64,000 bases of DNA from an uncultured Mycoplasmatota bacterium. Its GTDB lineage: Bacteria; Bacillota_I; Bacilli_A; RF39; UBA660. Shown here in pieces: positions 10,124-61,075 of the stretch. Position numbers and translations under genes: made by a program. Position 1 is the first letter of the stretch. Every line of letters starts with the position of its first letter. Below the pieces are notes generated by a model that did not search any database, was not told the origin of the DNA, and saw only the letters and a list, made by a program, of their open reading frames with translations. The DNA is taken from assembly GCA_947305065.1 (NCBI GenBank), contig CAMZCT010000001.1, positions 98,854 to 162,853 on the forward strand. The letters run 5' to 3'.

Positions 10124-10582
10124 CTAATTATTTCTTTTAATTAGTCTTTGAATAAATTCATATAGAATTAGCCCTATAGTAGAACCACCAGTATCAATAA
10201 TTACATCTTTTAATTCCCCTGATCTACCACTAATAAATAATTGATGTACTTCATCAGTCATAGCATAAAATATACAAATAATAAGAGCTATTAAATATAT
10301 TTTATTAACTTTTACATTACTATATTTTAAGGCCATGATAACTAATATACACAATATAGCATATTCTATAGCATGAGCTATTTTACGTATGGTAGGATTT
10401 ACTTCTTCTACTCTTTCTCTTTTCTCAGATTCTGATTTTTTATTCTCTACTATACTAACTATTTCATACGTTACTTTTTTACTTTTAGAAGCAGATTTTG
10501 GTCCATCATTAGCAGAAAATGAAAAAATAACTAGCATCCAAATAACTGTAATTATCCACATTATAATTGTTTTCTTTTTCAT
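10124..10582 (-). CDS. VanZ family protein
   Basis: VIWMLVIFSFSAND..., RKIAHAIEYAIL, DEVHQLFISGRSGELKDVIIDTGGSTIG. Confidence 0.88.
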   Translation of the reverse strand: MKKKTIIMWIITVIWMLVIFSFSANDGPKSASKSKKVTYEIVSIVENKKSESEKRERVEEVNPTIRKIAHAIEYAILCILVIMALKYSNVKVNKIYLIALIICIFYAMTDEVHQLFISGRSGELKDVIIDTGGSTIGLILYEFIQRLIKRNN

Positions 10583-10633: not shown

Positions 10634-11062
10634 AAAAAAGTTAGCGTGTCAAGGCTAACTTTGTCTTGAAAGTAGTAAACCATTAAAGGCCGGCCAGGTT
10701 TACTACACACACTCGAGGTGACAACTCTACTAATCCACTTTAAATAATCAAGAAATAAATAGGCTGGATTATTAGTTAAATGTATGCTCGCCACTAAACA
10801 AGTAATTACAATGCTATAGCTTAATTAAACAATAAAATCGTTTAAATAGTAATTTGTTTAGCAGATAAGCTTTTAAGCATATCATAACTAAGTGTGTACC
10901 ATTTAAATTTGTAAGATAGTAAACTATCTTACAGTTTAGTAAAAGTATTTTTATTATACTTTTACTAAATACATATTAATAAGACAAGTCTTACTAATAT
11001 GGATATTATAACGACTAAGTTATAATATCTCGTAATAAAATAATAATTATTTTATTACTGAA
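10634..11062 (-). ncRNA. large structured non-coding RNA of unassigned class
   Basis: No ORF; at least ten hairpins/long-range helices; promoter-like TTTACA-N17-TATCAT upstream on minus strand; terminator at the 3' end. Confidence 0.7.
10637..10662 (-). terminator. terminator of the 10.6-11.06 kb structured RNA
   Basis: AAAGTTAGC-N8-GCTAACTTT stem with U-tract on minus strand (aaaaaa at 10634-10639 on plus). Confidence 0.75.
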
Positions 11063-11163
11063 TTTATGATAATATATTTTTTTTGATTTGTAAATACCTT
11101 TTTTAAAGTTTTTTACACTTTTCTATTTTTTATAAGTTTGTAACATTTTCCTTTTTTATAAAA

Positions 11164-11194
11164 AAATAGTAACGGATTTGTTCCGTTACTATTT
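11164..11194 (-). terminator. terminator after ftsK remnant
   Basis: AAATAGTAACGGA/TCCGTTACTATTT hairpin. Confidence 0.7.
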
Positions 11195-12190
11195 TAATCG
11201 TTATCTTTTCTCATTACTTCTCTTGGACTAGATCCTTTTTGAGGACCGATTATTCCATTCTCTTCTAATATATCTATGAGTCTTGCTGCTCTATTATAAC
11301 CTAGTCTAAATTTTCTTTGAATTATTGAGACTGATATTTTACCTGTTTCATAAGCAAATTCTACGATTTGATCATATAATGGGTCAACAAATGTATCTTT
11401 ATTAACTTCTTCTTTTGGTTCTTCTGTTAATAAATTATCATTTCTAGCTTGTGATTGATCTTTAACAAAATTTACGACTCTATTTATTTCTTCATTACTA
11501 ATATTATAACTAAGGGCTTTTACGATTTCTTTGTTCTTTTCCTTTATTAAGAATTCACCAGGACCTTTTAATTTTTCGGCTCCAGCTTGACCTAGTATTA
11601 TTTTAGAATCATCAATACTAGCAGTAGCAAAAGCTATGTGAGTAAGAATACTATTCTTAATAATTCTACTTATTATTTCATTACTAGGTCTTTGCGTGCC
11701 AATAACTAAATATACTCCAGTTATTTTAGATAAATCTATTATTCTATTAAGTATACCTTCTATTTCTTTTAGCCATGATAAATCATTAAATTCATCAATA
11801 ATAATCATAATTCTAGACATTTTATTATCACTATTATTTTTATTATATTCATCAATATTTTTATAGTTATTTTCAATAATAGTATTGTTTCTATCATTAA
11901 CAAGATTTAATGCTCTTTCTAATATTGTTAATGCTCTTTTAGGATCATTAATGACGGGAAATAATAAATGAGCTATACCATTATAATTATTAAATTCTAA
12001 TTTCTTAGTATCTATTAATAGTAGTTGAAAATCATTGTAATGATATTTTAATAATATATTAATTATTATGTTATTTAATAATACTGATTTACCTGAACCA
12101 CTATATCCCCCAATAAGAACACTAGGATTATTATTTAGATCTAAATAATAAGGATTACCAAATTCATCTTTACCTAAACATAGTTTATAT
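11194..12190 (-). pseudogene. ftsK: 5'-truncated FtsK/SpoIIIE-type DNA translocase (motor plus gamma winged helix only)
   Basis: Same frame extends upstream of the listed ORF: YKLCLGKDEFGNPYYLDLNNNPSVLIGGYSGSGKSVLLNNI...; gamma domain YDQIVEFAYETGKISVSIIQRKFRLGYNRAARLID; reading frame breaks near 12190. Confidence 0.8.
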
Positions 12191-12377
12191 TTCTATACTA
12201 GGTATGAAAGATTAGTAGTACCGTTTTAAATACTGCGTATAATAGATTAGTTTTTTCATTCAGTTTTAAGTTTAGCTAGGTTGGTTGAGTAGATGAGTTT
12301 TTTCACCATGTTTTTTGACCATTTTTGGAGGTCTTTTTTTATGTATTTAACACTAAAAAAGATAGAAATTATTAATT

Positions 12378-14162
12378 CTATCTCTCAATTTCTACCCTTA
12401 CTCTTACCTTAGTAATGAGTTTTTTAATTCTTCTACCCTCTTCAGTATCAAATACGAAGAAGTGTTGATGACTTATAAAGTCTATAATTGGAATTAAAGC
12501 TAGATTATCTTTTCTTAAATCACTATTTTCTACTATAAAGTCATCTGTTAGATCATATCTTGTTTTGTAATTGTATTTACTTTTACATATAAACCTTATT
12601 ATATAGCTTTCATTTTCTCCATTTTCATTAATTGAACCGATGATGCCATAATCAACTAATGCTTCAAATAGTTCATCATCAAATTCAAGTGGACCATTTT
12701 TCGCATCTACTGCAACTAATTGTTCTTTAATCTTCTTTATGCCATTTTCAATTTTATCTTCTGAACTAATTACTGTTTCTACACTTCGTAGATTAACTTT
12801 TAATTTGTCTATCTTGTTTTGTAATTGTTCTTGTTTCTTATTAAATAACTCTGGTGTTACGTTTCCCGCTACATATAAATCAATTAACTTTGACATTTGA
12901 TTTTCAGCTTGTTCTATTTTTTCTTGAATCTTATCTTTCATTTCAAATGGTTCCGAAGTTCTTTGAGCTTCTGCTACATTCTTCATAAAAGTATCAAGAG
13001 CAGATCCTTCATCTTGTGTTAGCAAGTAATAAGCTTCCATGAAACACTTTTTAATAGTTTCATCATGCATCAGTTTACTATACTTACAATACATTCTTCC
13101 TTTACCAGCAACTGAATTACAATCCCATGCCTGATTTCTTTTATATAATGATTTCTTTATATAGGTATTACCACATAGACCACATCTAAATTTACCACTA
13201 AAAGTAAACTTCTTAACTATCTTTGTTCCTGGTGCTTTACCTCCAGATCTTGTTTTGATTATTTCTTGTACTTTATCAAATGTTTCTTTATCAATAATAG
13301 GTTCATGATGATCTTTGAAATGATACATATCCTCTTCTCCTTGATTTCGAATCTTCTTATGAGTGATTGAATCAAGAGTATATGATTTTCCAAGAATTAC
13401 ATCTCCTATATATTTCTCATTTTTGAGAATCCATAATATAGTATTCTCACACCAATGATTTTTACCAGTTGGAGATGGAACTTTCATATTAGTTAACATC
13501 TTATTAATTGTTGCAGCTCCATAACCTTCAAGATATGAATTAAAAATAAATCTTACTGTTTCAGCTTCCTTTTCATTTATTTCATATATTCCTTTTTTAA
13601 TATTGCAAATATATCCGTAACATCCTCCGTTACCTATAAGCTCCCCTCTCTTCATTTTCATCTTCAGTCCTAACTTAACATGAGAACCAATTGTTTCAGA
13701 TTCTTGTTGAGCTACTGAAGATAAAACTGTAAGAAGAAGTTCGCCTGACATGTCTAAAGTGTTTATGTTCTCCTCTTCGAAAAGAATCGCAACATTTGAA
13801 TCTTTTAGAGTTCGAACGTATTTCAAAGTATCGAGAGTATTTCTAGCAAACCTTGATATTGATTTTGTAAGTATTAAATCAATTCCACCTTCTTTGGCAT
13901 CTTTGATCATTCTTAAGAAATTATCTCTCTTAAATGCTTGAGTTCCGCTTATGCCCTCGTCAGCATATACCTCGACGAAGCTCCAATTTGGATTTGATAG
14001 TATCTTATCCATATAATATTTTTGTTGTGAGTAGAAGCTTGTTGATTGTTCATCTGAGTCTGTACTAACTCTTGCATATGCAGCTACTCTTAATTTCTTT
14101 TCTAGTATATTCCCTCTAGACATAATTGTGTTATTAGTTTTTTCAATTACTTTTACTTCCAT
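12378..14162 (-). CDS. large serine recombinase
   Basis: AAYARVSTDSDEQSTSFYSQQKYY, DEGISGT, SRFARNTLDTL, zinc ribbon CGLCGNTY. Confidence 0.95.
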   Translation of the reverse strand: MEVKVIEKTNNTIMSRGNILEKKLRVAAYARVSTDSDEQSTSFYSQQKYYMDKILSNPNWSFVEVYADEGISGTQAFKRDNFLRMIKDAKEGGIDLILTKSISRFARNTLDTLKYVRTLKDSNVAILFEEENINTLDMSGELLLTVLSSVAQQESETIGSHVKLGLKMKMKRGELIGNGGCYGYICNIKKGIYEINEKEAETVRFIFNSYLEGYGAATINKMLTNMKVPSPTGKNHWCENTILWILKNEKYIGDVILGKSYTLDSITHKKIRNQGEEDMYHFKDHHEPIIDKETFDKVQEIIKTRSGGKAPGTKIVKKFTFSGKFRCGLCGNTYIKKSLYKRNQAWDCNSVAGKGRMYCKYSKLMHDETIKKCFMEAYYLLTQDEGSALDTFMKNVAEAQRTSEPFEMKDKIQEKIEQAENQMSKLIDLYVAGNVTPELFNKKQEQLQNKIDKLKVNLRSVETVISSEDKIENGIKKIKEQLVAVDAKNGPLEFDDELFEALVDYGIIGSINENGENESYIIRFICKSKYNYKTRYDLTDDFIVENSDLRKDNLALIPIIDFISHQHFFVFDTEEGRRIKKLITKVRVRVEIER

Positions 14163-14165
14163 TTA

Positions 14166-15758
14166 TCACACCTCTATATCTTTCTTATCTATTACTATTT
14201 TTACTTTTATGTAATTATTTCTTTTTCTATAACTAAATGTTGAATGAAACTTCCAAAGTTCAATATAATTTTCATTTTTGCAGATTTCAGTTAAGTCTTT
14301 TTTAGCACTAAATTTAGATGCATTGTATTCATTAACTTTTAGAACAATTCGACAATTTAATTTATTTCTATAATTATGTTTTAATGTTTCTCCAAATTGA
14401 ATATATTTAACGAGTTTATCTACCAGTTCTTTACTAGGTTCATATGCTGGAAATGAGTCAATACTTAATAATCGATTTTTGAGGGCACTAAGTATCTTAT
14501 TAATACTTTCAGTTTTTATCTCATCAGTTTCAATCTCATTTTGTTTATTACCATACCTATAATTTGTGTCATCAATCAAATTATTAAATTCATATTTGTT
14601 CACTTTATTATTGAGCATTTGATCTAAATAATATAAGCTCTCATTGCTATAATTTGTATTTATTCTTCTAATTGCTCGATTATTATCTTTCTTAGCATAT
14701 TTAAATATTTGATCATAGTTAGATAACAATTCATTTTGAAATTCTAACAATATACGATTAACAACATCTTCTTTTATATTAATGCTATATTTACATCCGC
14801 CGTCTCTACAAACACGATTCACATAAAACCTAACACCAGAATCAAATCCATATGATCTACCACAAAAACCACATCTAACAATTCCTGAAAAAATATCTAC
14901 ACCTTCTTTTAATCTTCTTTGTGAGTAATTGAAATTCATTTTTTCAATTGTTTTATTAAATGTTTCATCAGATATTATTCTTAATTCTTCATGTTCATAA
15001 ATATAATCACCAAATTTAATTAATCCTGTGTATTTTTCTGTTCTTAAAATTATATATACATATGCTTCAGTCCATTTCTTATTGTATGGGGATTTGATGC
15101 ATTCATCATTTAATAAATCTGCTATTCTTCTTACTTTTGTTCCATTAAGATATAACTCAAATATCCTTTTTACAATATTTGCTTCTTTTTCATTTATTCT
15201 TATCTTTCCGTATTTAAATAAATAACCATAAGTTGCCAAATGTTTTCTTGTTTTTCCTCTTGAGAAAACCATTTTATTTCCAAGTTTAGTTCTATTTGAA
15301 TAATTATTAGATTCTTGCTCTGCTACTGAAGATAATATTGTGAGCAAAAGTTCACTTTGCATTCCAAGAGTATATATATTCTCTTCTTCAAATATTACTC
15401 CTACATTGTGTTCTTTGAGCAATCTAACATATTCAATTGAATCTATCGTATTTCTAGCAAACCTTGAAATCGATTTAGTAAGTATTAAATCAATTTTTCC
15501 ATCAAGTGCATCTCTTATCATATTATTGAATCCAGTTCTGTTTTTAACACTTCTTGCACTAATTCCATAATCTTCATAAATTCTAACCAATTTCCAGTTT
15601 GAATTGCGATATATTTTAGAATAGTAGTATTTTCTTTGTGATTCAAAGCTACTTATTTGAGCTTCAAGATCTGTACTTACTCTTACATAAGCAGCAACTC
15701 TTAATTTAAGGCTTTTATAATTCTTTCTATAATTGCCTTTAACAACTTCAACTTTCAT
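14166..15758 (-). CDS. large serine recombinase
   Basis: AAYVRVSTDLEAQISSFESQRKYY, SRFARNTIDSI, CGFCGRSYG. Confidence 0.95.
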   Translation of the reverse strand: MKVEVVKGNYRKNYKSLKLRVAAYVRVSTDLEAQISSFESQRKYYYSKIYRNSNWKLVRIYEDYGISARSVKNRTGFNNMIRDALDGKIDLILTKSISRFARNTIDSIEYVRLLKEHNVGVIFEEENIYTLGMQSELLLTILSSVAEQESNNYSNRTKLGNKMVFSRGKTRKHLATYGYLFKYGKIRINEKEANIVKRIFELYLNGTKVRRIADLLNDECIKSPYNKKWTEAYVYIILRTEKYTGLIKFGDYIYEHEELRIISDETFNKTIEKMNFNYSQRRLKEGVDIFSGIVRCGFCGRSYGFDSGVRFYVNRVCRDGGCKYSINIKEDVVNRILLEFQNELLSNYDQIFKYAKKDNNRAIRRINTNYSNESLYYLDQMLNNKVNKYEFNNLIDDTNYRYGNKQNEIETDEIKTESINKILSALKNRLLSIDSFPAYEPSKELVDKLVKYIQFGETLKHNYRNKLNCRIVLKVNEYNASKFSAKKDLTEICKNENYIELWKFHSTFSYRKRNNYIKVKIVIDKKDIEV

Positions 15759-17304
15759 TTTGATTTCCTATCTCAATTTGAATAGTAACAGGAACTTTAG
15801 TAACAATTACTTCTCTTTTGTTTTTACCATTCAAATCTTGTTCATAATATCTAAATGGAGTTGAATAATTAAACGATAATATTTCTTTAAATTTTTTCTT
15901 TTCAAAATATTCCAAAGGTTTACTGGTAATATCTTCTCTCCTATGTGTCCTTTTTAATACAATGTATAACTCAAATGGACTTTTTGTACTCCCAACAATA
16001 ACATAATCAATTATTGAATTAAAAACTTTATCACTAAATTTGTCATTTACTTCATCAGACAATTCAATAAATTTTTCGCTTGTATATTTAATTAATTTAT
16101 CATTATTTCTCATACAATACTTTTTTAGTAATTTAATAGAATGCGCAAATATATTTTTTAGTACTTCTTCTTTTTGCATTCTACTTTTTGGACAATTTTC
16201 TTTTCCCTCATCAATAACTGTTCTACAATTATAAACTTTATGATTGTATCCATTAGAGCGATGTAAAGAGTTGCCACAGTAAGCACACTTTAATCTTCCA
16301 GAAAGTGTATATCTAGTAATAAAACTATTAACCAGTTTTTCATCAGTATTGTATAATTTGTTGTATTCCTCAAATTTATTTAGAACTTTATCATACAAAT
16401 CTCTATCAATAATTGCTTCATGATGATCTTTAATATAATATTTATTTTTACCACCACGATTTTTTATTTGTTTTCCAACAGTAGCTGGTACTGTATAGTA
16501 TTTACCCATAAGTAAATCTCCAGCATATTTTTCGTTTCTAAGCATTTTAGAAATTGCATTGTGATGCCATTTCATATTACCTTTGCAAGTTGGTATTTTC
16601 ATTTCAGTAAGTCTCTTTGCTATATGTCTAATTGGAACTCCTTCTACATACCAATTAAAAATCATTTTGACTACTTTAGCTTGTTCCTTATTAACATATA
16701 ATTGTTTTGTTTTGGGATCATAATCATATCCATAGCAACCGCAAAAACCAACTATTTCTCCTCTTTCCATTTTCATTCTTAAACCTAGTTGAACATGTTC
16801 AGATAGATTAAGTGATTCTTGCTGAGCTATTGAAGATAATATTGTAAGTAATAATTCTCCTGCCATATTCTTTGTGTTGATATTTTCTTCTTCAAATAAA
16901 ACAGCGACATCATAATCTCTGAGAAGTCTGACGTATTTCAAAGTATCGAGAGTATTTCTAGCAAATCTAGAAATCGATTTAGTTAACAATAAATCAAATT
17001 TACCATTAACTGCATCCTCTACCATCTCATTGAATCCTTTTCTATGTTGTGTATTAGTTCCAGATATTCCCTCATCAGAATAAATTCTCACAAAATCCCA
17101 ATCAGGATTAGCAATAATCTTTTCGTGAAAATATTTCACTTGAGATTCAAAACTATCTAGTTGATCATCGTGTTTGCTGCTTACTCTTACATAAGCAGCA
17201 ACACGTAACTTATTATTTGAAGATTTATCTTCTTTTATTTGTCTTTTTTCAATTATTTCTAATTTCATATAAAAACTCCTTTCAAGACAAACAAAGAATA
17301 TCAA
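15748..17304 (-). CDS. large serine recombinase
   Basis: AAYVRVSSKHDDQLDSFESQVKYF, DEGISGTN, SRFARNTLDTL, CAYCGNSL. Confidence 0.95.
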   Translation of the reverse strand: MIFFVCLERSFYMKLEIIEKRQIKEDKSSNNKLRVAAYVRVSSKHDDQLDSFESQVKYFHEKIIANPDWDFVRIYSDEGISGTNTQHRKGFNEMVEDAVNGKFDLLLTKSISRFARNTLDTLKYVRLLRDYDVAVLFEEENINTKNMAGELLLTILSSIAQQESLNLSEHVQLGLRMKMERGEIVGFCGCYGYDYDPKTKQLYVNKEQAKVVKMIFNWYVEGVPIRHIAKRLTEMKIPTCKGNMKWHHNAISKMLRNEKYAGDLLMGKYYTVPATVGKQIKNRGGKNKYYIKDHHEAIIDRDLYDKVLNKFEEYNKLYNTDEKLVNSFITRYTLSGRLKCAYCGNSLHRSNGYNHKVYNCRTVIDEGKENCPKSRMQKEEVLKNIFAHSIKLLKKYCMRNNDKLIKYTSEKFIELSDEVNDKFSDKVFNSIIDYVIVGSTKSPFELYIVLKRTHRREDITSKPLEYFEKKKFKEILSFNYSTPFRYYEQDLNGKNKREVIVTKVPVTIQIEIGNQNES

Positions 17305-17579: not shown

Positions 17580-17705
17580 TCGAACCCTGTTACACCCAGG
17601 AAATCATCAAACGATTGATTTGCTAAATCAATTCCATGGGAATTTCACCCTCTTGTGGTTCTCACAAAACTGCACCCATTGCTTGAGTCTGTGGCTATGC
17701 AGAAG
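17580..17705 (-). ncRNA. candidate structured RNA within ICE
   Basis: GC-richer non-coding block with consecutive hairpins: CCTG/CAGG 17586-17600, ATTGATTT/AAATCAAT 17614-17632, GGG/CCC 17638-17650, TTGTG/CACAA 17653-17667. Confidence 0.4.
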
Positions 17706-17904
17706 TATCATTATTACTATTACTTGTTATCGCATATTATTTGCTAAATAATTTTATAATCAAGCATTAATCGCAAGCGTACTTATTAAAGTGCTAGAGT
17801 AATAGGAATGTATTTGATGAATGAAAACAAGTTTTCAAAGAACAAAGGTGAAAGAATAATAATATCCTTTCACCTTATTCCTCACTTAAATCAAATTATT
17901 CAAC

Positions 17905-18763: not shown

Positions 18764-19195
18764 TTAATTATTTGGTATTTGATTGATTCCATTAATAGGT
18801 TCTTGTAAACCTAATTCTTCTTTTATTTTAGTTGTTGATATTCCTTCTGTTCTGTCTAGATAGACAACTTCACAATAATCTTTTAAATAATCAAACTTTT
18901 CTGAACCTGCCCAATCAGATCCCATAACAACTATATCAACATGATATTCTTTAACATCATTAATCTTTTGCTCCCAATTTTCTTCTGGAATGACAAGGTC
19001 AACATATCTCACTGCTTCAAGCATTTTTTTTCTAGTTTCAAAATCATGATATGCTTTCTTTCCTTTTATTTCATTAAATTCATCAGTAGATACAGCTACA
19101 ATTAGGTAATCTCCTAAAGCTTTTGCCCTTTGTAAAAGTCTTATGTGACCATAATGTAATAAATCAAATGTACCATAAGTTAAAATTCTTTTCAT
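18764..19195 (-). CDS. tagD: glycerol-3-phosphate cytidylyltransferase
   Basis: LTYGTFDLLHYGHIRLLQRAKALGDYLIVAVSTDEFN, STTKIKEEL. Confidence 0.92.
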   Translation of the reverse strand: MKRILTYGTFDLLHYGHIRLLQRAKALGDYLIVAVSTDEFNEIKGKKAYHDFETRKKMLEAVRYVDLVIPEENWEQKINDVKEYHVDIVVMGSDWAGSEKFDYLKDYCEVVYLDRTEGISTTKIKEELGLQEPINGINQIPNN

Positions 19196-19196
19196 A

Positions 19197-20621
19197 TTAT
19201 CTCTCCTTTACAATTTTGCTTTTTAAAAAAAACAGCACACTTTTTATATTATTCTTATTTAATAAAACAATAACAATTAGACCAAACAATAGATTTATCA
19301 ATATTGAATAAAGAGTTCTTACATAATACAAAATTGAAACTATTAATAATGATATTAATGCTATTAATAAGGTCCTAAAATTTATTTTAAAAATTACAAA
19401 CTTTTTTATGTCTATAAATCTATAAATAAACAGAAAAACATAGGCTATCAAAGTAGAAATTGACGCTGCCCATAATCCAAATTTATTAATGAAAATTATA
19501 TTAATGATTATATTAACCAATGCACATAGCATAGTTGTTTTTGCAACTTTTTTTGTTATTTTTTTTGCAATATAAGCTCCACCCAATACATTCGATAAGG
19601 CATTAAAAATGTTTCCTAATAATAAAACCGGTATATAAAAATAAGCCACGCGATATTTTTCTCCCACCATTGCATTAAAAACCAAAGGCAAAAAAATCAA
19701 TATAATAATACTTATTGAAGAAAAAATTCTAAGAGAATTATCTAAAACTTGTGAAAAAAATGTATCTCTATCATCTTCGTTAATATGAACAGAAGCACTT
19801 TCTTGCCAAGTTATATTAAATACTCCAGAAAAACTTTGCATTATATTGGCAAATTTAGAAGATATTGCATATACACCATTCATAGAATCTCCAATTATAA
19901 ATGAGATAATAGTTCTATCTGAAACATTAACCATCCACCAAGACAATCCGTCAGGAATCATTGGCAATGAATATTTTAACATTTCTTTCAATTTATCTTT
20001 ATCTACATTATCTTTATTGAACAAATGAAATACATTATTTTTTATTGCCAAATATATGGATGCTAAAACATTTCCAATTGATGAAGCGATTAATATAGAG
20101 TAAGCATCCATATCAAAGAATATTATTAATACAGTGGTAAGAAGAACATTTAATAAACCACATATTATACTTGCTATTGCGTAATCATTATTCTTTCCTA
20201 AGCCTCTTGAGACTTGCAATAAAATAGTAAAAATAGCCATTGTAATTATATTGAGTATAATATAAGTGAAATATTTTATACTAATAAAATAATTTATGAT
20301 TAATGAAATAGTTATGCAAATAGATATTTCTATAAAGCACATATAAATAATGGTACTTATAATTTTGCTTTTATTTTTTTCATCACTTCTGGTATCTATT
20401 AAAAATCTGAAAACAGCAGAATCCATTCTTAATAATAAAATAGGAACCATCAATGCTACATATGATTGTACCAAATCGATATATCCATAATCTGATGTAT
20501 TTAAGAATTTTGTATAGACTGGTATTAAGAAAAATGAAATAAATTGTGTACAAAATTTGCTAAAAAAGATAACTATCGTATTTTTTACTAATTCAAATTG
20601 TTTCGATTTCTTACCCATCAT
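19197..20621 (-). CDS. polysaccharide flippase (Wzx-like, MOP superfamily)
   Basis: Multi-TM protein; NTIVIFFSKFCTQFISFFLIPVYTKFLNTSDYGYIDLVQS. Confidence 0.88.
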   Translation of the reverse strand: MMGKKSKQFELVKNTIVIFFSKFCTQFISFFLIPVYTKFLNTSDYGYIDLVQSYVALMVPILLLRMDSAVFRFLIDTRSDEKNKSKIISTIIYMCFIEISICITISLIINYFISIKYFTYIILNIITMAIFTILLQVSRGLGKNNDYAIASIICGLLNVLLTTVLIIFFDMDAYSILIASSIGNVLASIYLAIKNNVFHLFNKDNVDKDKLKEMLKYSLPMIPDGLSWWMVNVSDRTIISFIIGDSMNGVYAISSKFANIMQSFSGVFNITWQESASVHINEDDRDTFFSQVLDNSLRIFSSISIIILIFLPLVFNAMVGEKYRVAYFYIPVLLLGNIFNALSNVLGGAYIAKKITKKVAKTTMLCALVNIIINIIFINKFGLWAASISTLIAYVFLFIYRFIDIKKFVIFKINFRTLLIALISLLIVSILYYVRTLYSILINLLFGLIVIVLLNKNNIKSVLFFLKSKIVKER

Positions 20622-21781
20622 TTAATCCTTTCATCCATATATTCTTTAATACTTATTGATGACTTACCACTTTCTTTTAAACCTATGCTTTCTTTAAAGT
20701 TATCATATCCATTACAAATATCTTCCATTTTAGTATTTAATAGTAATTTATATAAATCTTTATTATTGTAACTGATAGGAAATGGTAAATCATTAATGTC
20801 AAAATATGAGCCTCTATCTTTGTTATATTTTTCAATATCATTGGCGTAAATAATAACTGGTTTATTCGCAATCATTGCTTCAAACATTGTAGATGAATAA
20901 TCAGTTATCAGCAAATCACAAGCAAGAATTAATTCTTGAATATCATCATAGTTGTTTGCATTAATGTAATTATTATAATTTGAAATTAAACTATCTGGAT
21001 TTTTTATTCCTGGATGCATACGTATTATAACACTATATGTATCATGATATTTCTTATTTAAAACCTTGATAACATCGTCAAAATTAATATCATAAGGATT
21101 TTTATCATAATGAGCCCTAAAAGTTGGGGCATAAAGAATAATTTTATTATTTTTTGATATATGTAAAACATTACACACTTTACTTCTAATTGATAAATCT
21201 GTTCTATTTACTAGTAAATCATTCCTAGGTGTCCCGTTACATATTATCTCACCAGAATATCTAAAAGCTCTTTTGTATAAATCATTACAAAATGAGCTAT
21301 TAGATACCATTAAATTTGTATAATTTGTATCCTTTACTGCATTTTTAACGTAATTGTTATCTAATTTATCTTCAACATCAAACTCAATTTTTTTAAAAGC
21401 TAAACAACCATGCCAAGTTTGAATATAAACCTGCTTTTTTCTCTTTACATAGTACACAGGTATTCGAGTATTAAAAATCCAAAATTTAGATGTAGCTATA
21501 TAATAAAAATATTTTAAACTGTATATCTTAACTGGCTTTACATAAGATGGAAATTTATCATTAATATTTTTGCATATCCATATTATTTCGTAATTATTAT
21601 CTTTGGCCAATTCTTCTGATATGTACTTAGGACTATCACCATATCCTTTTCCAACAAAATTGCTACATAATACTCTATAATTATTTATTCTAAATATTCT
21701 AAAGAAAAAAATAGGTATAGCAAGTATTTTAATAATAAAACTGTTTGCTATAATTAATTTAAACTTATTAAGTAGTGACAT
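20618..21781 (-). CDS. CDP-glycerol glycerophosphotransferase family protein (TagF/TagB-like)
   Basis: YIQTWHGCLAFKKIEFD, ILYAPTFRAHYDKNPY, LLITDYSSTMFEAMIANKPVI. Confidence 0.9.
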   Translation of the reverse strand: MSLLNKFKLIIANSFIIKILAIPIFFFRIFRINNYRVLCSNFVGKGYGDSPKYISEELAKDNNYEIIWICKNINDKFPSYVKPVKIYSLKYFYYIATSKFWIFNTRIPVYYVKRKKQVYIQTWHGCLAFKKIEFDVEDKLDNNYVKNAVKDTNYTNLMVSNSSFCNDLYKRAFRYSGEIICNGTPRNDLLVNRTDLSIRSKVCNVLHISKNNKIILYAPTFRAHYDKNPYDINFDDVIKVLNKKYHDTYSVIIRMHPGIKNPDSLISNYNNYINANNYDDIQELILACDLLITDYSSTMFEAMIANKPVIIYANDIEKYNKDRGSYFDINDLPFPISYNNKDLYKLLLNTKMEDICNGYDNFKESIGLKESGKSSISIKEYMDERIK

Positions 21782-21787
21782 ATTTTA

Positions 21788-22777
21788 TCAATTCCCCCTT
21801 ATAGATTGATATAAATTACAAAGAAAAACCAGCATTCCAGCACCTAAATATGATGAAATAGCAAATATCTTACTTCTTTTACCAGCCTTTTTATCTTTAA
21901 TAACCACACCTCTATATTTTTTCACAATCAAAAAAGCTTGCTTTTTAATTTTATCAAAATTTTTAGATTTACCTATCCCTAATATTGTAAAAATCCCTTC
22001 CATAAATTCTCTATTGTATGCAGCTAAAATTAAACTTGGTATATTATCCTGAATAAATTTTGTTTCATCTTTTGCAAATTTAAGTGAAACAGATCTTTTT
22101 TCATTATAATTAGAACCTGTTATACTTGTTTTTCTAAGCAAATAATAATACATCATGGCATCTGAAATAACTACCTTTTTAGATTTATAGAATAATTTAT
22201 ATGTAATAGGTAAATCCTCGTGAACCTGTCCGACCGGATACTCTATTCCATTAAATAAATCTCTTTTATATAATTTACCCCAGGCACTTGTAGTGCAATT
22301 ATCCTGATACAATAATTTTTCCAAAGCATCAACATTATCATATACACGCGTATTAATATTTGAAAAAGTTTCATCAACTAATGTTTCACCTTCATATATT
22401 TTTTTATATAATACAGTAGAAATATCTGCTTTATTGTCCTTTAGTTGATTGTATAAAAAATTAATTGTATCAGTATGCATAAAATCATCGCTATCAATAA
22501 AAAACAAGTAATTTCCTTTGCTCTCTTTAATCCCATAATTTCTTGCTTCAGATAGCCCACCATTAGATTTATTTATAAGTTTAATTCGTTTATCAATTTT
22601 TTTATATTTTTCACATATTTCCCTACTATTATCAGTAGAACCGTCATTCACAAGTATAATTTCAATGTTGTGAAATGTTTGAGAAATTAAGGAATTAATA
22701 CATCTATCTAAATATTGTTCCACATTGTAAACAGGAACAATAATAGAAATCAAATCATCCATTTTTTTAGTTTTCAT
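21788..22777 (-). CDS. family 2 glycosyltransferase
   Basis: ISIIVPVYNVEQYLDRCINSLISQTFHNIEIILVNDGSTDNS. Confidence 0.93.
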   Translation of the reverse strand: MKTKKMDDLISIIVPVYNVEQYLDRCINSLISQTFHNIEIILVNDGSTDNSREICEKYKKIDKRIKLINKSNGGLSEARNYGIKESKGNYLFFIDSDDFMHTDTINFLYNQLKDNKADISTVLYKKIYEGETLVDETFSNINTRVYDNVDALEKLLYQDNCTTSAWGKLYKRDLFNGIEYPVGQVHEDLPITYKLFYKSKKVVISDAMMYYYLLRKTSITGSNYNEKRSVSLKFAKDETKFIQDNIPSLILAAYNREFMEGIFTILGIGKSKNFDKIKKQAFLIVKKYRGVVIKDKKAGKRSKIFAISSYLGAGMLVFLCNLYQSIRGN

Positions 22778-24017
22778 AATTACTGGCTCCTTTTTTATCT
22801 GTTAAAAAAACACTACATAACGTAAAAAGCAAAAATACAAGATTTAAGTTATTAAATATTTCACCCTTCCAACAAGCAATAAATAGACAAACAATAAAAA
22901 CATATCTAAATGAAGTTATTCTCTTATCATTTTTTAATGAATTGTTAAAAAATTTTATAAAAGATCCAACGTAAAGTAGTAAATAAATAACACCACCCAA
23001 AAATATGTAATTTACATATCCAATATCACTTGATGTACCAATTGTATTTAATCCTAGCTCGCCATAAACTCTCATACCAGTACCAAAAACCAATTTCCAA
23101 CCAGAAGGAAATACTAATGCTGTTTTAGTTAAATAATTAAAAGTTCTAGTATTTGTAAAAGAAAATAACTGATTAATAAAACTATACATAGCAGGATTAA
23201 CGTTACGAATTACAAGAATAAAAAGATAAAATAATAATATTATAACCATTCCCCAAAAAACAGCTGTTATTTTTTTGTTAAATTTCGATAATAAAATCAT
23301 TATAAATACTGACAAGAGTCCAATTAGAATTCCAGTTCTCCCATTTAATATACTAACTAAAAAAATGAATGGTAAAAATATGAAATATTTTTTATTGTTA
23401 TTTGTTGCATGATAGAAGCATAAACCTGTTAATAAACCATTAACAATTGGAATTCCATAAGTGTAACTATCTCCTAAACCATATACTCTTGTTCTAAGAA
23501 TATAGTCATTTTCATTAAAAATTGTCGAATTAATAAAAGAGTTAATTGCAATTGTTCTTGTTGAAGGAAATAAAAGCATAATCAAACAAACTAATCCTTG
23601 TATAAAAGCAACGTTTAGTATGAATTCTATTATTTTATTTTTACTATAGCCATTTATTCTAAGGTTATTTACAATAAAAAGAGCTGCAAAAAGATACAAA
23701 ACTATCATTAAGTGTTGAACAATTCTTAAATCAACAATATTTATAGTACTACTAGTATTGATAGCAACAATTATCGAGCAATAAATAGTTGATAAGAAAA
23801 TGCCAAGCAAAAAAGAAAAAATATATTTATTTTTAATGGAACGAAGTATATACTTTCCACCATGAATAACATCATATATAAGCATTAATCCTACAATAAC
23901 AGCAACCGAAATATTTGAATCAATGTGGAATATAGCGAAAGGTCTATACAAAAAAATAAAAGTTAATACATAACATAACAAAATATTAATCTTTTTCATT
24001 ATAAAACCTTCTTTCAC
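22767..24017 (-). CDS. Wzy-type polysaccharide polymerase
   Basis: Hydrophobic multi-TM protein with large extracytoplasmic loop, in EPS cluster. Confidence 0.7.
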   Translation of the reverse strand: MKEGFIMKKINILLCYVLTFIFLYRPFAIFHIDSNISVAVIVGLMLIYDVIHGGKYILRSIKNKYIFSFLLGIFLSTIYCSIIVAINTSSTINIVDLRIVQHLMIVLYLFAALFIVNNLRINGYSKNKIIEFILNVAFIQGLVCLIMLLFPSTRTIAINSFINSTIFNENDYILRTRVYGLGDSYTYGIPIVNGLLTGLCFYHATNNNKKYFIFLPFIFLVSILNGRTGILIGLLSVFIMILLSKFNKKITAVFWGMVIILLFYLFILVIRNVNPAMYSFINQLFSFTNTRTFNYLTKTALVFPSGWKLVFGTGMRVYGELGLNTIGTSSDIGYVNYIFLGGVIYLLLYVGSFIKFFNNSLKNDKRITSFRYVFIVCLFIACWKGEIFNNLNLVFLLFTLCSVFLTDKKGASNYEN

Positions 24018-26122
24018 TCATAAATTTCATGTATTTTTTTTGTAAGCGTATTATCATCAATTATATCAAAACTTATCTCTATTTTTGAATTCAAAAGTAA
24101 TTCTTTTGCTTTACTTACATATTGATTCATATTACTACATATTAGATACTTATTTTTATTAAAGATAGTTTTTAATCCACCAACACCACTATTTAAGACT
24201 GGTTTATTAAGAATCATAGATTCAATAGCTGTTAAACCAAATCCCTCAAATTTAGACGGCATTATTCCAATTTTTGAGGCTTTAATATACGGAAATGGAT
24301 TTGATTTAAATCCAATTAATTCAATGTTATTATTTAGAGAATAGTTATTTATAAGTTCAAGGCATTTTTCCTTTAGAGGTCCATCTCCTATCATTACGCA
24401 TTTTATTCTATTATTATCTAATTTGTGAATTATTTTAATAAACTCTATTGGATTTTTTTCCTCTGATAATCTTCCAAAGAAAAAAATATCATATTTATCT
24501 TTTACTTGATATTCATCAGCCAACTTTTGAATTGCTTTTTTATCAACATAATTTGGCAAAGTAACATATTTACCTTTAATTCCATTTCTAAAAATATATT
24601 CATCAAGTATTGAATCTGATACTCCTATAATTTTCTTAAATTTTTTGGATTTAATTAGATAAAGGATACTCTTTACGGATATTTTTTTCATTTTAGGATC
24701 ATTTTTATGTAAGTGTGATATTATGATACATTTATTATAAAATATACTAGCATATAGTGATGCTTTAAAATCATGGGCATGAATAATATCAACTTGTTTA
24801 TCTTTTACTATTTTCTTTATTTCTTTTATATTTAATTTTTTTATTGGTACGAAATCTATATTTCTTTCTTTTAATGAAACTATTATATTTCCCTCAGGTG
24901 AACAATAAAATGAATTATAATCATTCATACTTGAATTAATAATTGTACAAGCAACATTTTCAGCACCAGAAAAAGAATTACTAGAAAGTAGATGCATAAT
25001 GGTTTTTCTTTTAAAATAAATACTTATCATCTTTTTCATAATATTATTTAATAAATATTTTGAAATTATTTTTTTACTTTCTATGCCAAATTTAATTGAT
25101 TCTTCATTTGATAAATATATTTTTTCTATAAATCTAGCAAATTTATCAACATCATTAACATCAACAAGATATCCATTGACGTTATCTTTTATTAAATCTC
25201 TTTGGCCTCTGCAATCTGTAGCTACTATTGGTAAGCCAACATACATCGCTTCCATAACATTTAGTGGGAGACCTTCCCTATGCGATGTAGCAAGAGCAAG
25301 ATTAGAAATTTTTAATAATTTTGGAATGTCTTTCCTATATCCTAAAAAAAGTATATTATTATTTAACCCTTTTTCTCTTACTATTTCTTGATAATGGTTC
25401 TTATATGAATCAATTCCAGGTAATAGAACTTTAAAATTAGAATATTTTTTTACTAATTTTTCCATTGCATTTATTATTAAAATCTGATTTTTGTTCCAAT
25501 TTAATTCTGCTGGATAAATCATTACAAAATCATCGTCTTCTAATCCCAAAGATTTTCTAATAGCAGTCTTTTCTTTATTAGACAGGTCAAAATCAAATTT
25601 TTCTTCGTCAATTCCTACTCCTGGAACATATTGAATATCTTTACATTTTTTAAATTTTTTCTTTGCAAAATTATAATCTTCATTATTAATTAGAATTAAA
25701 GTATCTGTATATTTTGATAACCATTTTTCTACTGGATAGAAAAGTAACCAATTTTTCAAAGGTGCTCCCTTAAAAAAATGAAGACCATGAGCAGTATAAA
25801 TAACCCTAGTATGAAACTTTTTTCTTGATTTTTTTGCTGCCAATCGTGTTATAACTGCACCCATAGGAGTATGAGTGTGTATGATATCAAACTTTTCAGT
25901 TTCACATATCTTTTTCAATTGCTTAATTGCTTTGAGATTATTAAATTTTATTGGATTTCTTTCAAAAGTAACCACATGTTTAACATCACAAAATGGTATT
26001 TTCTCATCACCACTTGTTGCTACGTGAACCTCATATCCATTTTCTTTAAACATTTTTAAAAAAGGCAAATGGAATTGTAAGATATGAGAATCAACAGTAG
26101 CGGAAAATAAAACCTTTTTCAT
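24014..26122 (-). CDS. two-domain fused GT4 glycosyltransferase
   Basis: Two complete GT4 modules: HTHTPMGAV...SHREGLPLNVMEAM and HAHDFKASL...SKFEGFGLTAIESM, joined at ~YFKRKTIMHLL. Confidence 0.88.
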   Translation of the reverse strand: MKKVLFSATVDSHILQFHLPFLKMFKENGYEVHVATSGDEKIPFCDVKHVVTFERNPIKFNNLKAIKQLKKICETEKFDIIHTHTPMGAVITRLAAKKSRKKFHTRVIYTAHGLHFFKGAPLKNWLLFYPVEKWLSKYTDTLILINNEDYNFAKKKFKKCKDIQYVPGVGIDEEKFDFDLSNKEKTAIRKSLGLEDDDFVMIYPAELNWNKNQILIINAMEKLVKKYSNFKVLLPGIDSYKNHYQEIVREKGLNNNILFLGYRKDIPKLLKISNLALATSHREGLPLNVMEAMYVGLPIVATDCRGQRDLIKDNVNGYLVDVNDVDKFARFIEKIYLSNEESIKFGIESKKIISKYLLNNIMKKMISIYFKRKTIMHLLSSNSFSGAENVACTIINSSMNDYNSFYCSPEGNIIVSLKERNIDFVPIKKLNIKEIKKIVKDKQVDIIHAHDFKASLYASIFYNKCIIISHLHKNDPKMKKISVKSILYLIKSKKFKKIIGVSDSILDEYIFRNGIKGKYVTLPNYVDKKAIQKLADEYQVKDKYDIFFFGRLSEEKNPIEFIKIIHKLDNNRIKCVMIGDGPLKEKCLELINNYSLNNNIELIGFKSNPFPYIKASKIGIMPSKFEGFGLTAIESMILNKPVLNSGVGGLKTIFNKNKYLICSNMNQYVSKAKELLLNSKIEISFDIIDDNTLTKKIHEIYE

Positions 26123-26127
26123 ACTCT

Positions 26128-26835
26128 CTACTCACTCTCCATTTGCTTATTATATTTTTTTAAATCATCTAGTTCTTTCTTTATCGTATTCTTACCAGCA
26201 TCTGCTCCATGACCAGTAAACACTGTCTTTATTGTTAGAAATATTATTTTAATATCTTGATATAAAGAATAATTCTTTATATATTCAATATCATATTCAA
26301 TTTTGTCAAATATGGTAATATCATTTCTTCCCATACATTGGGCTAAACCTGTTAGGCCTGGTCTAACATCATATCTATGTCTCTGATTTTCGTTCATATT
26401 TTCATAATAATCAGGAATCCATGGCCTAGGTCCTATAAAAGACATTTTCCCGGTTGCGATTGAAAACAATTGTGGTAGCTCGTCTAGACTCGTCTTGCGT
26501 AAAATTTTTCCAATTTTTGTATGTTCATCAGCTTTAGAAAAATCATGAACATCATTTTTTTCTACCATAGTTCTAAATTTATAAATATAAAAGTTTTTTC
26601 CACCTTTTCCTGTTCTCTCTTGCTTAAAAAGTACATGACCTTTTGAATCTAGTTTGATTGCAATGGCAATTAATAGCATTAATGGTGATGCAACTATTAG
26701 TCCAAATATAGCTAAAAGACGATCAAACATAAACTTAATTCCAGCAAATACAACTATTAATGCTTGTGAATAAAATTTTCTATGCGTAACATTTCCGTTC
26801 AAATCCACATACGTTTCAATAATATTTTCGTTCAT
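26128..26835 (-). CDS. priming undecaprenyl-phosphate sugar transferase
   Basis: KFRTMVEKNDVHDF, LRKTSLDELPQLFSIATGKMSFIGPRPW, RPGLTGLAQ. Confidence 0.92.
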   Translation of the reverse strand: MNENIIETYVDLNGNVTHRKFYSQALIVVFAGIKFMFDRLLAIFGLIVASPLMLLIAIAIKLDSKGHVLFKQERTGKGGKNFYIYKFRTMVEKNDVHDFSKADEHTKIGKILRKTSLDELPQLFSIATGKMSFIGPRPWIPDYYENMNENQRHRYDVRPGLTGLAQCMGRNDITIFDKIEYDIEYIKNYSLYQDIKIIFLTIKTVFTGHGADAGKNTIKKELDDLKKYNKQMESE

Positions 26836-28680: not shown

Positions 28681-30987
28681 TTATTCTCCTGGTTTAGTGG
28701 TCATTAGTTTATATAGCTTTGTATTCATAGGGAACTTATTTACAAAAGGTACCAAAGAAGAACCGTACCTTATCAATCCACATCCTGGATCACTATCTTT
28801 GATATATGATAATTGATCTTCTGAAATATTTAATAATTCAGCAAGTCTTAATCTATCATTTGTGGCTTGATTTAACATTATAATAAATTCACTATTTGAA
28901 AGCATTGTTGAAGCTTCTACTGATGATAATAAATATTGAACATTCTGAGTAATAGCTGTTGGATATGCATTTCTTTTTCTAAATTGTCTCCATGCACTAT
29001 TAAAGAAGTTGGCAGAATATTCATTTTGAAACATTACATGAAATTCATCAATAAAGATATGTGTTCTCTTGCCTATTTTATAATTTTGATTAACTCTATT
29101 CAATATGGCATCAGTTATAACTAAGAGTCCAAATGTTTTTAATGATTTACCAAGTTTATGAATATTATATGTAATAATTCTATTATTTGTATTAACATTA
29201 GTTTGATGAGCAAAAATGTCCAAACTTCCCTCTGAATATATTTCCAAACTTAGTGCTAAATTATGAGCTTGCTCTTCTGGTTGCTCATTTAAAACATTTT
29301 TTAAGTCTAGTAATGTTGGGCTTTCTTTTTTATCTCTAAATCTTTCGTAAACAATTGATGTACATCTATCAATTATTGATTTATCGATTGGCCCAAGTCC
29401 GCCATGTTTTTTTAATAATTGTTCAAACAAAGACAGTATAAACTCTGACTTTGCTGCAATTGGATTTCCTTCTCCATATCCATCTTCTAACATCATTGCA
29501 TTAATATGATTATTACTTGTTGCAGATATATCAATAACTTCTCCATGCAAAGCATCAATTAATGGAGAATATTCATTTTCAGGATCACATATTAAGATAT
29601 CATCATCAGTTGATAAAGCTAAAAAAGTTATTAATTCTTTTGCACTAAATGATTTACCAGATCCGGGTACACCAAGTAAAAAAGATGATTGATTCATAAG
29701 TTTAGATTTATCAACCATTATTAGATTATTACTAATAGCATTCTCACCATAATATATTCCTTTTTTATCCATAATCTCTTGTACCTTGAAAGGCATAAGT
29801 GCCGCAAGGGATTCAGTAGTTAATGTTCTTGCTGCTTTGATTCTCTTATGTCCTATTGGAAGAACTGTATTAAGTCCTAATAATTGTTGATATTTTAAAT
29901 TTGTTATCTGACACATATGTCTTTGAGCAGTTGATTTTAGATTATCACTTAATTCATCAAGTTTTTCTTTAGTTTCAGCAACAAGAAGAATAGTTAATGT
30001 TCCTTCCATTAACATTTGATCTCTGGCTGTTACATCATTTAAAGTTTCTCTTGCTTCTTTTCTACTTTGTTCCATATCATAAGGAATAACCGCACTAAAA
30101 TTATTATTTTGATTTTGTTTTCTTTGCCAATTAGTTATATTCGACTCAACACCAAGTAATATTCTTTCAAGTAGTTTAATAGCTTCATTAATTGGTATAG
30201 GTTTAATATCAATTGAAATCATCATGTTTTGATTAATATCAGTTAGATCTGAAACCATACTATCTCTTATGAAGTTTGCATAATCTTTTAAAAATAATAC
30301 TCTTCCAAATTTATCTCCCATTTCAAAATAATCATCTTTAAATGAAAATGAATTAGGACAAATATAATCTTTAAATGAATGTCCAAGTTTTCTTGCACCT
30401 ACAATATCAAAATTATATAAAGATTCTTCTCCTAAACGATATATGTCATGAAGAATTCTAAGTTTTTCATTTGCATCAATATTAGTACATTTACTACCAA
30501 GTTTAAGAAAATATGAATTTAGTTCTGTACCTATTCTTTTAAAATAGTTTTTTGCTTCCTCATAATCCTTTTTATATGCAGTAATTGTTAGATATAATTC
30601 TTTAACCATTCCATTAGAATTAAATGCTTTATCCAGTAACATATCATTATATTCTTTTCGGTAAATATCTAATCCATCTTCTTTGAATGGTAATAATATT
30701 TCCTTTTCAAATTCTTTTTTATTAATTTTTTTTAGATTTATTGTTATTTTAACTTCACTCGTAGCATCAAAAGAATTTAATAGTTCGGAATAACTCAAAA
30801 ACATTGCTTCCTTATCTTCTTTCGAAGCTACTGTATAGTTAATATCAGTAAACTTATAAGTAAAAGAATACTTATTCTTGCCAACTAAACAAATTCCATT
30901 ATCCCAAATTCTATCAATTGGGATACAGTCCTGAATTGACTTAGGAATCTTGTGACTTTCTTTGTCTTTTGAAAATAGTTTTATCAC
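28681..30987 (-). CDS. T4SS ATPase VirB4/TraE-like
   Basis: LLGVPGSGKSFSAKELI, DILICDPENEYSPLIDAL, IFIDEFHVMFQNEYSANFF. Confidence 0.93.
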   Translation of the reverse strand: MIKLFSKDKESHKIPKSIQDCIPIDRIWDNGICLVGKNKYSFTYKFTDINYTVASKEDKEAMFLSYSELLNSFDATSEVKITINLKKINKKEFEKEILLPFKEDGLDIYRKEYNDMLLDKAFNSNGMVKELYLTITAYKKDYEEAKNYFKRIGTELNSYFLKLGSKCTNIDANEKLRILHDIYRLGEESLYNFDIVGARKLGHSFKDYICPNSFSFKDDYFEMGDKFGRVLFLKDYANFIRDSMVSDLTDINQNMMISIDIKPIPINEAIKLLERILLGVESNITNWQRKQNQNNNFSAVIPYDMEQSRKEARETLNDVTARDQMLMEGTLTILLVAETKEKLDELSDNLKSTAQRHMCQITNLKYQQLLGLNTVLPIGHKRIKAARTLTTESLAALMPFKVQEIMDKKGIYYGENAISNNLIMVDKSKLMNQSSFLLGVPGSGKSFSAKELITFLALSTDDDILICDPENEYSPLIDALHGEVIDISATSNNHINAMMLEDGYGEGNPIAAKSEFILSLFEQLLKKHGGLGPIDKSIIDRCTSIVYERFRDKKESPTLLDLKNVLNEQPEEQAHNLALSLEIYSEGSLDIFAHQTNVNTNNRIITYNIHKLGKSLKTFGLLVITDAILNRVNQNYKIGKRTHIFIDEFHVMFQNEYSANFFNSAWRQFRKRNAYPTAITQNVQYLLSSVEASTMLSNSEFIIMLNQATNDRLRLAELLNISEDQLSYIKDSDPGCGLIRYGSSLVPFVNKFPMNTKLYKLMTTKPGE

Positions 30988-33881: not shown

Positions 33882-34199
33882 CTATCCAGTAATTAAACCG
33901 ATTATTTCTTTTGCAAAAGTAATTATTACTCCTCCAACAAGAGTGAAAACTCCATTTGTTCTTTGTGATGGATCATGGCTTTGATATGACATACCAATTT
34001 GAACCACTCCAAATATTAAAATGATTGTTCCTATTGCTCTTGTTAAAGTAAATATAAAATTGGATAAGTTGTTAATTACACCTATTGGATCATCAGCTGC
34101 ATACACAGGCATTATCGTATTTAACGTGAATGACAATACGGTTGTAATCATCATTATCTTTTTTACTTTCTTTAAAGTTTTTTCATCAATTTTTTTCAC
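33882..34199 (-). CDS. small conjugative membrane protein (Maff2/VirB2-like)
   Basis: Signal peptide plus two TM helices, IGMSYQSHDPSQRTNGVFTLVGGVII. Confidence 0.75.
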   Translation of the reverse strand: MKKIDEKTLKKVKKIMMITTVLSFTLNTIMPVYAADDPIGVINNLSNFIFTLTRAIGTIILIFGVVQIGMSYQSHDPSQRTNGVFTLVGGVIITFAKEIIGLITG

Positions 34200-36181: not shown

Positions 36182-36894
36182 CTACTAGTACCTCTTTCTT
36201 TACTTTTAACATGCTTATGTTCAGTAACTTTATTATTCATTTCTTTCTTGATTTCTTTAATTTCTTCTCTAACAGATTTTCTAGTAGAGGCTTCTAAACT
36301 CTTTTTGCTCTTTGAGGAAGGCTCTAACTGACTCTCGTTTACCTTCCCTAAAGTCGGGTTTATATTTTGTTGTTCCTCCTTCTTTAGAGGTTTTTGTTTT
36401 TCTTCCTTTTTCTTTTTTTGATTTTCATTTACTGGTTCGTGACCTTTAGCTTTTTCTTCTTTAATCTTTTGAATTTCACTTTCAATAGTAGCCATATCAA
36501 CAGTAGCAAGTTTAAATCTTTCAACTATTCTATTAATCTTAGAAGCATCTTCTTCTTTTGTCATAATATCAACCATACCATCTTTATGTTTCTTTTCTAC
36601 AATTGCAGCAAATAAAACACCATATCTTTTAGCTTCTTCACTAAATTTCTGTAAGTCTTCTGTTTTGATAGAAAATACTTTAAGTGGTCTTCCAGATTTA
36701 AGCATATTAGTAAGAGTTGTCTTACCTCTTACTTTTTGTTGATCTTTGGCTATTGCTACTAAAGCAGCAGCAACATTCTTTGCTCCACTACCAGATAACC
36801 TTGCAGCAACTTCAAATCCCTCAAGAGATATTCTTACGATTTGTTCTGCTGCGTCACTTGACGTGTTCACTTCTTTCACTTTCCTTTCTTTCAT
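36178..36894 (-). CDS. PcfB family (DUF3801) protein
   Basis: VRISLEGFEVAARLSGSGAKNVAAALVAIAKDQQKVRGKTTLTNMLKSGRPLKVFSI. Confidence 0.85.
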   Translation of the reverse strand: MKERKVKEVNTSSDAAEQIVRISLEGFEVAARLSGSGAKNVAAALVAIAKDQQKVRGKTTLTNMLKSGRPLKVFSIKTEDLQKFSEEAKRYGVLFAAIVEKKHKDGMVDIMTKEEDASKINRIVERFKLATVDMATIESEIQKIKEEKAKGHEPVNENQKKKKEEKQKPLKKEEQQNINPTLGKVNESQLEPSSKSKKSLEASTRKSVREEIKEIKKEMNNKVTEHKHVKSKERGTSR

Positions 36895-53900: not shown

Positions 53901-54060
53901 AAGAAAAAAATCTTTCAGGCTTTGAAAGATTTTTATTTTATTTTATTTAATTATAACAATCATCATCCAAAGCTATTAACTTTGTCGGTATTAGCACCTA
54001 ACTTAATAGGTTGCTGCGGAGTCATTGAGCCGATTCTCTCGTCCGCTCTTGATAACATAT
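53901..54060 (-). promoter_or_regulatory. SAM-I (S-box) riboswitch with intrinsic terminator
   Basis: Minus strand TTATCAAGAGCGGACGAGAGAATCGGCTCAATGACTCCGCAGCAACC...AGGTGCTAATACCGACAAAG, then AAATCTTTCA/TGAAAGATTT hairpin plus T-run, upstream of metK. Confidence 0.92.
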
Positions 54061-60988: not shown

Positions 60989-61075
60989 GCCTCAGTGGCG
61001 GAATTGGTAGACGCGCTGGACTCAAAATCCAGTGTTAGCAATAACGTGCCGGTTCGAGTCCGGCCTGAGGCACCA
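60989..61075 (+). tRNA. tRNA-Leu (anticodon CAA)
   Basis: GCCTCAG/CTGAGGC acceptor, CTGGA-ctCAAaa-TCCAG anticodon arm, long variable arm, GGTTCGAGTCC T arm, encoded CCA. Confidence 0.95.

Follow-up and report, generated by a model that had tools for sequence, protein, structure and literature searches.

The window analysed here is a stretch of 64,000 nucleotides of an uncultured Mycoplasmatota bacterium. On its minus strand, a VanZ-family gene is preceded by about 427 nt predicted to form a structured non-coding RNA, with a promoter-like site at one end and an intrinsic terminator at the other (Table 1). The TTTACA-N17-TATCAT motif that the first-pass annotation had described on this strand is indeed present, and its N17 spacing is identical in the window and in the homologous loci of three other species, G012, G007 and G010 (-10 elements TATCAT, TATCAT, TATTAT and TATACT). 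A promoter scan yielded 21 such sites vs 17.3 ± 4.0 in shuffled sequences, i.e. no excess, so that the weight of the site derives from its conservation with N17 in all four species, not from the scan. The terminator also proposed for this unit was recovered as a hairpin (10662-10637) and a U6 tract (10639-10634) that are nearly invariant across species, a hairpin absent from the list produced by a simple terminator scan. The start of the RNA was inferred about 7 nt after the -10 element, and its end was placed at the terminator U-tract. In the aligned homologs, stops break all reading frames of the region and indels do not occur in multiples of three, which indicates that the product of the locus is an RNA.

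Table 1. Coordinates of the predicted RNA, its elements and the adjacent gene in the window
Feature	Position	Strand	Basis or remark
Structured non-coding RNA, ~427 nt (predicted)	10634..11060	-	fold z, homologs, covariation
Promoter: -35 TTTACA 11094-11089, 17-nt spacer, -10 TATCAT 11071-11066	11066..11094	-	scan, conservation
5' domain, five hairpins H1-H5	10911..11058	-	two-sided changes in each
H1	11032-11058	-	6 pairs with two-sided changes
H2	11002-11029	-	5 pairs with two-sided changes
H3	10973-11000	-	2 pairs with two-sided changes
H4	10935-10969	-	7 pairs with two-sided changes
H5	10911-10932	-	3 pairs with two-sided changes
Core closing stem P1, 10897-10892 with 10712-10707	10707..10897	-	perfect, invariant in four species
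Long arm P2-P3-P4-P4a-P4b	10772..10891	-	folds, alignment, covariation
P2	10891-10885/10778-10772	-	part of long arm
P3	10881-10876/10788-10783	-	pairs in G007 and G010 despite different sequence
P4	10864-10854/10801-10791	-	part of long arm
P4a	10853-10849/10809-10805	-	pairs in G007 and G010 despite different sequence
P4b	10845-10838/10832-10825	-	part of long arm
Unpaired palindrome GCUAUAGC between P4b and P4a; GUUGCAAC in G010	10813..10820	-	compensatory changes
Stem P5, 10771-10765/10737-10731	10731..10771	-	alignment, covariation table
Hairpin P6, loop UGUCA at 10723-10719	10715..10727	-	loop kept in four species
Stem P7 with 17-nt loop	10672..10706	-	covariation table; loop holds palindrome
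Palindrome GGCCGGCC in P7 loop; GACCGGUC in G010	10695-10688	-	compensatory changes
Intrinsic terminator AAAGUUAGC-CUUGACAC-GCUAACUUU, then UUU	10634..10662	-	stem 100% paired in four species, alignment
VanZ-family gene, downstream of the RNA	10124..10582	-	PF04892, NF037970; linked in four species

Secondary structure, strand and sequence constraint

The minus strand of a 442-nt stretch covering the locus has a predicted folding energy of -122 kcal/mol, vs -78.1 ± 5.1 kcal/mol in shuffled sequences (z -8.6; 0/100 shuffles). Since the plus strand is also stable by energy (z -10.1), a single sequence cannot fix the strand and comparison between species is needed. Counted across the four species, G-U cells amount to 29 vs 4 A-C cells in favour of the minus strand, a count mildly biased by the derivation of the core structure on that strand; with the conserved minus-strand promoter and terminator, it agrees with the orientation originally assigned to the RNA.

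Covariation was computed from an alignment of just four distinct sequences, for which RNAalifold predicted 124 pairs, 26 of them with compensatory two-sided changes. The structure adopted here comprises 120 pairs, distributed over the five hairpins, P1, P2, P4, P4a, P4b, P5, P6, P7 and the terminator, and forms standard pairs in 95.6% of the cells of the four sequences. Across these homologous intergenic regions, two-sided changes affect 27 pairs vs 10.8 ± 2.2 in shuffles (0/500 reach 27) and 2-6 in slid controls, the kind of signal that the first-pass annotation had expected of a genuine RNA. Most of it falls in the five 5' hairpins, where the sequence drifts and the shape is retained; all five had been described beforehand and occur in the four species. 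P1, P4b, P6 and P7 are invariant, and hence outside covariation testing. The region thus almost certainly encodes a real conserved structured RNA. That this RNA is under purifying selection is shown by computation; among the window's genome (G000), G012 and G007, identity reaches 92-93% in the core and 95-97% in the terminator, vs 69-75% in vanZ and 84-90% in a Clp ATPase gene.

Every pairing arm quoted in the earlier description was located where it had been placed, and its core stems P2, P3, P4 and P5 were confirmed, the minimum-energy folds of G007 and G010 repeating the P1-P7 layout. MAFFT partly misaligned P2-P3 and P4a. When G007 and G010 are folded independently, P2 and P3 form one uninterrupted helix, in a different sequence, which favours the nested P2-P3-P4 arm over the alternative P2/P3 pairing of RNAalifold, and the latter was dropped. 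The closing stem P1 was retained, but not the register claimed for it (10704-10710), which clashes with P7 by 3 nt and was replaced by the P7-compatible register of Table 1. P4a, P4b and the P6 hairpin were absent from the earlier description. Near-invariant single-stranded stretches include AAUUUAAAUGGU, the conserved AAAAGCUUA bulge in the 5' strand of the long arm, and the P5 loop AGCC. The P6 loop UGUCA could base-pair with the terminator loop UGACA (10651-10647), this being the sole all-Watson-Crick 5-bp loop-loop match common to all four species, and it is invariant.

Distribution and gene neighbourhood

Among 59 relatives searched with blastn, three species of the same genus carry a full-length homolog (88% identity in G012, 83% in G007 and 74% in G010). 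Each lies at the vanZ locus and retains the promoter, the five 5' hairpins, the branched core and the terminator, and every carrying genome has one copy of the RNA. The core model R1, run on 59 family genomes, 289 order genomes and the 59 relatives, recognised only the four species, plus two fragmentary matches (E 0.4-0.7). A GTDB-wide pattern scan returned the three other known loci, a near-identical one (L044, 99.7% identical to that of G007 over 4.6 kb) and four records that R1 did not recognise; the homologs are named there as uncultured Erysipelotrichaceae RUG14620, uncultured Firmicutes and uncultured Tenericutes MAGs. The other 11 members of the genus gave no blastn match and no credible R1 match. 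Their vanZ genes are 33-40% identical to that of the window and the DNA upstream consists of 5S rRNA or coding genes, grounds on which a diverged copy hidden at this locus was rejected. The occurrence of homologs in four species, and not in the other genomes searched within the genus, family and order, suggests that the RNA is characteristic of a single subclade within an uncultured genus, with the proviso that very diverged copies could escape the strict filters applied when over 40 genomes are searched. A mobile origin was also rejected, as searches of plasmids, phages and IMG/VR (three viral-contig patterns) gave just short AT-rich or chance matches.

In five RNA-less members of the genus (L066, L067, L068, L070 and L075), the contig stops some 500-600 nt on the upstream side of vanZ, in a 5S rRNA-like tail, and a small cold-shock-like gene comes next. 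In these five, vanZ adjoins an rRNA operon, and in the RNA-bearing subclade the RNA stands there instead.

In all four species, vanZ lies downstream of the RNA in the same orientation. A gene of ~317 aa separates the two in three species, and vanZ directly follows the RNA in the window, so that the ~317-aa protein was discarded as an obligate linked partner. This intervening gene (L045, 1966-2883; L039, 2451-3392; L044, 3060-4001, minus strand; L038, 4868-5821; ~305-317 aa) encodes a product matching no Pfam or NCBIfam family, with invariant Cys131, His171 and Asp186 in the order typical of transglutaminase and arylamine N-acetyltransferase folds; its weak structural model (pLDDT 49) resembles the same folds, without significance. 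In each of the four species, a TATAAT-like element lies between the RNA terminator and the following gene, suggesting that the RNA is probably transcribed as a unit of its own.

The genes upstream of the RNA differ among all four species. The first-pass annotation had placed the RNA between VanZ and ftsK; the VanZ side is the one kept in the four species, and the FtsK side is an N-truncated fragment outside the conserved context. This C-terminal fragment (11194-12192, minus strand; Walker A and gamma domain, 332 open codons) lacks its N-terminal part beside recombinases of an integrative conjugative element (ICE), and the matching part was not recognised among the window's listed ORFs. The FtsK fragment beside the ICE is incidental to the RNA. 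At the edge of the element stand three consecutive large serine recombinase genes (12378-17304, minus strand) with a pemK RNA motif beside them (17634-17714, minus strand; RF02913, 63.1 bits). The element carries a polysaccharide-synthesis cluster (18764-26835) and genes for VirB4 of the CD1110 family (28681-30987), a VirD4-like protein (34186-35994), a relaxase-like protein (36854-38173) and ParA/ParB-like proteins (45244-46954). Elsewhere in the window, a SAM riboswitch (53957-54058, minus strand; RF00162, 76.6 bits) lies directly upstream of an S-adenosylmethionine synthetase-like gene (52760-53869), and a retron-type reverse transcriptase is encoded at 62903-63847 on the plus strand (best model retron St85 RT, at 209.6 bits against a curated cut-off of 235).

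Palindromes and rival explanations

Three 8-nt palindromes are retained in all four species, namely AUUUAAAU, which is invariant, GCUAUAGC and GGCCGGCC; in sequences this AT-rich, about three per sequence are expected by chance. The latter two have changed in G010, where they accumulated six substitutions, all within three complementary pairs. Given six substitutions in 16 sites, the conditional probability of such a placement is ~2.6e-4, for a test devised after the pattern was noticed. Palindromic loops kept by covariation, the hallmark sought of a self-associating RNA, are thus found here, with all compensatory changes in the single lineage G010. The predicted self-duplex energies of the two compensated palindromes are -20.7 and -13.6 kcal/mol. 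In the change from GCUAUAGC to GUUGCAAC, the middle AU became GC; as two adjacent nucleotides of a chain cannot pair with each other, this change points to pairing between two molecules. The same adjacent-nucleotide argument was applied by Kretsch et al. 2025 to the symmetric kissing loops of OLE and GOLLD (PMC12286853). GCUAUAGC could alternatively form a 2-bp hairpin, accounting for one of its two compensated pairs. Based on these palindromes, we see about an even chance that copies of the RNA associate with each other through them.

The explanation that we favour, which as a whole might equally well prove right or wrong, is that of a chromosomal, stand-alone RNA of ~427 nt with its own promoter and terminator, which would act as a folded molecule and not as a message or leader. 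Its five-hairpin array would precede a branched P1-P7 core with almost invariant single-stranded elements; copies would most likely pair via the P7-loop palindrome GGCCGGCC and the palindrome GCUAUAGC next to P4, with a possible intramolecular contact between the P6 and terminator loops, and the paired RNA would act as a scaffold or as the core of an RNP. The locus, its strand and secondary structure, its purifying selection and narrow distribution, and the persistence of the two palindromes are shown by computation, and transcription, dimerisation and the scaffold role are inferred. The same stand-alone RNA might instead work as a monomer, either an RNP scaffold or a catalytic RNA whose loops bind protein or ligand, the palindromes being protein sites or a coincidence. 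The large near-invariant single-stranded stretches would suit such a molecule, and raiA, another large and ornate RNA, proved purely monomeric when its structure was resolved (PMC12286853); however, the compensated palindromes, above all the adjacent-nucleotide change, would be left unexplained, and we regard a monomer as unlikely.

The constant position of the RNA upstream of vanZ in the four species, and the 51 nt that separate the end of its terminator from the vanZ start in the window, would also be compatible with a riboswitch-like cis leader or attenuator of the vanZ operon, in which the core senses and the terminator controls read-through. Against this stand the variable identity of the next gene, the TATAAT-like element past the terminator, and the near invariance of the terminator itself, for which no antiterminator alternative was spotted by eye; to our knowledge, the five-hairpin array is also unlike known attenuators. 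A leader is therefore improbable, and the locus quite probably specifies an independent transcript. Only a slender chance is given to a trans-acting antisense sRNA or protein sponge with merely stabilising hairpins: an independent promoter and terminator and conserved unpaired segments that could be seed regions would fit, but the RNA is more elaborate than typical sRNAs and its most conserved segments include helices. Finally, the AT-richness of the region and the equally good folding energy of the plus strand might reflect DNA hairpins or multiple terminators made of AT-rich inverted repeats, or a plus-strand structure, with no RNA involved; this is scarcely credible in view of the G-U excess, the conserved minus-strand promoter and terminator, and the covariation of the nested core.

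Comparison with known RNA families

In keeping with the orphan status first given to this RNA, Rfam 15 (gathering and E-value thresholds) returned no family match for the window RNA or its G007 and G010 homologs, and sub-gathering matches of the three consisted of microRNA, CRISPR, sRNA and cis-regulatory families only. The RNA is thus uncatalogued as far as Rfam 15 is concerned, and it may be listed under another name among published candidates, e.g. those from the human microbiome (PMC8040213). It is not RNase P, 6S or SRP RNA (no match to E = 10), none of which the first-pass annotation could match it to. Nor is it tmRNA, which has a similar length, a tRNA-like domain and a tag ORF, and occurs once per genome: ARAGORN finds none here, and the tmRNA of this genome lies elsewhere (G000:C34:3786-4154, 110.5 bits). 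Membership in OLE, ROOL, GOLLD or raiA was rejected for want of a covariance-model match. The resemblance to ROOL, GOLLD and OLE noted at the outset holds in kind, with the compensated palindromic loops as one added point in its favour, but not as family membership by Rfam.

Few large bacterial RNAs combine an elaborate, conserved fold with the lack of a known function, and several of those recently solved proved to be RNA-only assemblies of open cellular purpose. The present locus adds a compact, uncatalogued RNA with two palindromes predicted to mediate self-association, and suggests that RNAs of this kind can be limited to a single subclade within an uncultured genus, and as a result escape family-level surveys. 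More tentatively, and with somewhat less than an even chance in our view, it could represent a natural homo-oligomeric RNA of a new class, in which ~430-nt chains restricted to one lineage form an RNA-only dimer, or a larger assembly, with two palindromic contacts per chain and no sequence relationship to OLE, ROOL or GOLLD. If this is true, RNA-only complexes arose more often than the few known times.

The raiA motif RNA is an orphan structured RNA of Firmicutes, and the present RNA has no raiA match in Rfam. GOLLD is much larger than the ~430-nt RNA described here. It is likewise ornate, with symmetric kissing loops backed by adjacent-nucleotide covariation (PMC12286853), and the present RNA has no GOLLD match in Rfam. 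ROOL RNA (Rumen-Originating, Ornate, Large; ~580-660 nt) is also a large orphan with many hairpins, first found in rumen material; it assembles through kissing loops, and its genes lie in phages and prophages, often close to tRNA islands (PMC12286853). Unlike ROOL, the present RNA is chromosomal, next to vanZ, and was not found in the phage, plasmid and viral searches; a single tRNA lies 50 kb away, at 60989, and not a tRNA island of the ROOL type. OLE RNA (Ornate, Large, Extremophilic; ~600 nt vs ~430 nt here) is also large, ornate and chromosomal in Gram-positive-type bacteria, and OLE variants were found in RF39 gut bacteria (PMC11332333). Neither the window RNA nor its G010 and G007 homologs matched the OLE covariance model up to E = 10. 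OLE occurs together with the membrane protein OapA, whose gene is often its neighbour, and no gene of the OapA type was recognised among the listed ORFs adjoining the RNA. OLE is an RNA dimer with a symmetric kissing loop, in which an inner GGCC palindrome is replaced by GAUC or AGCU (PMC12286853), the same kind of signal as the change from GGCCGGCC to GACCGGUC. By analogy, the present RNA would work most like the large ornate RNAs, and OLE especially, with which it shares a hairpin-rich fold and palindromic loops.
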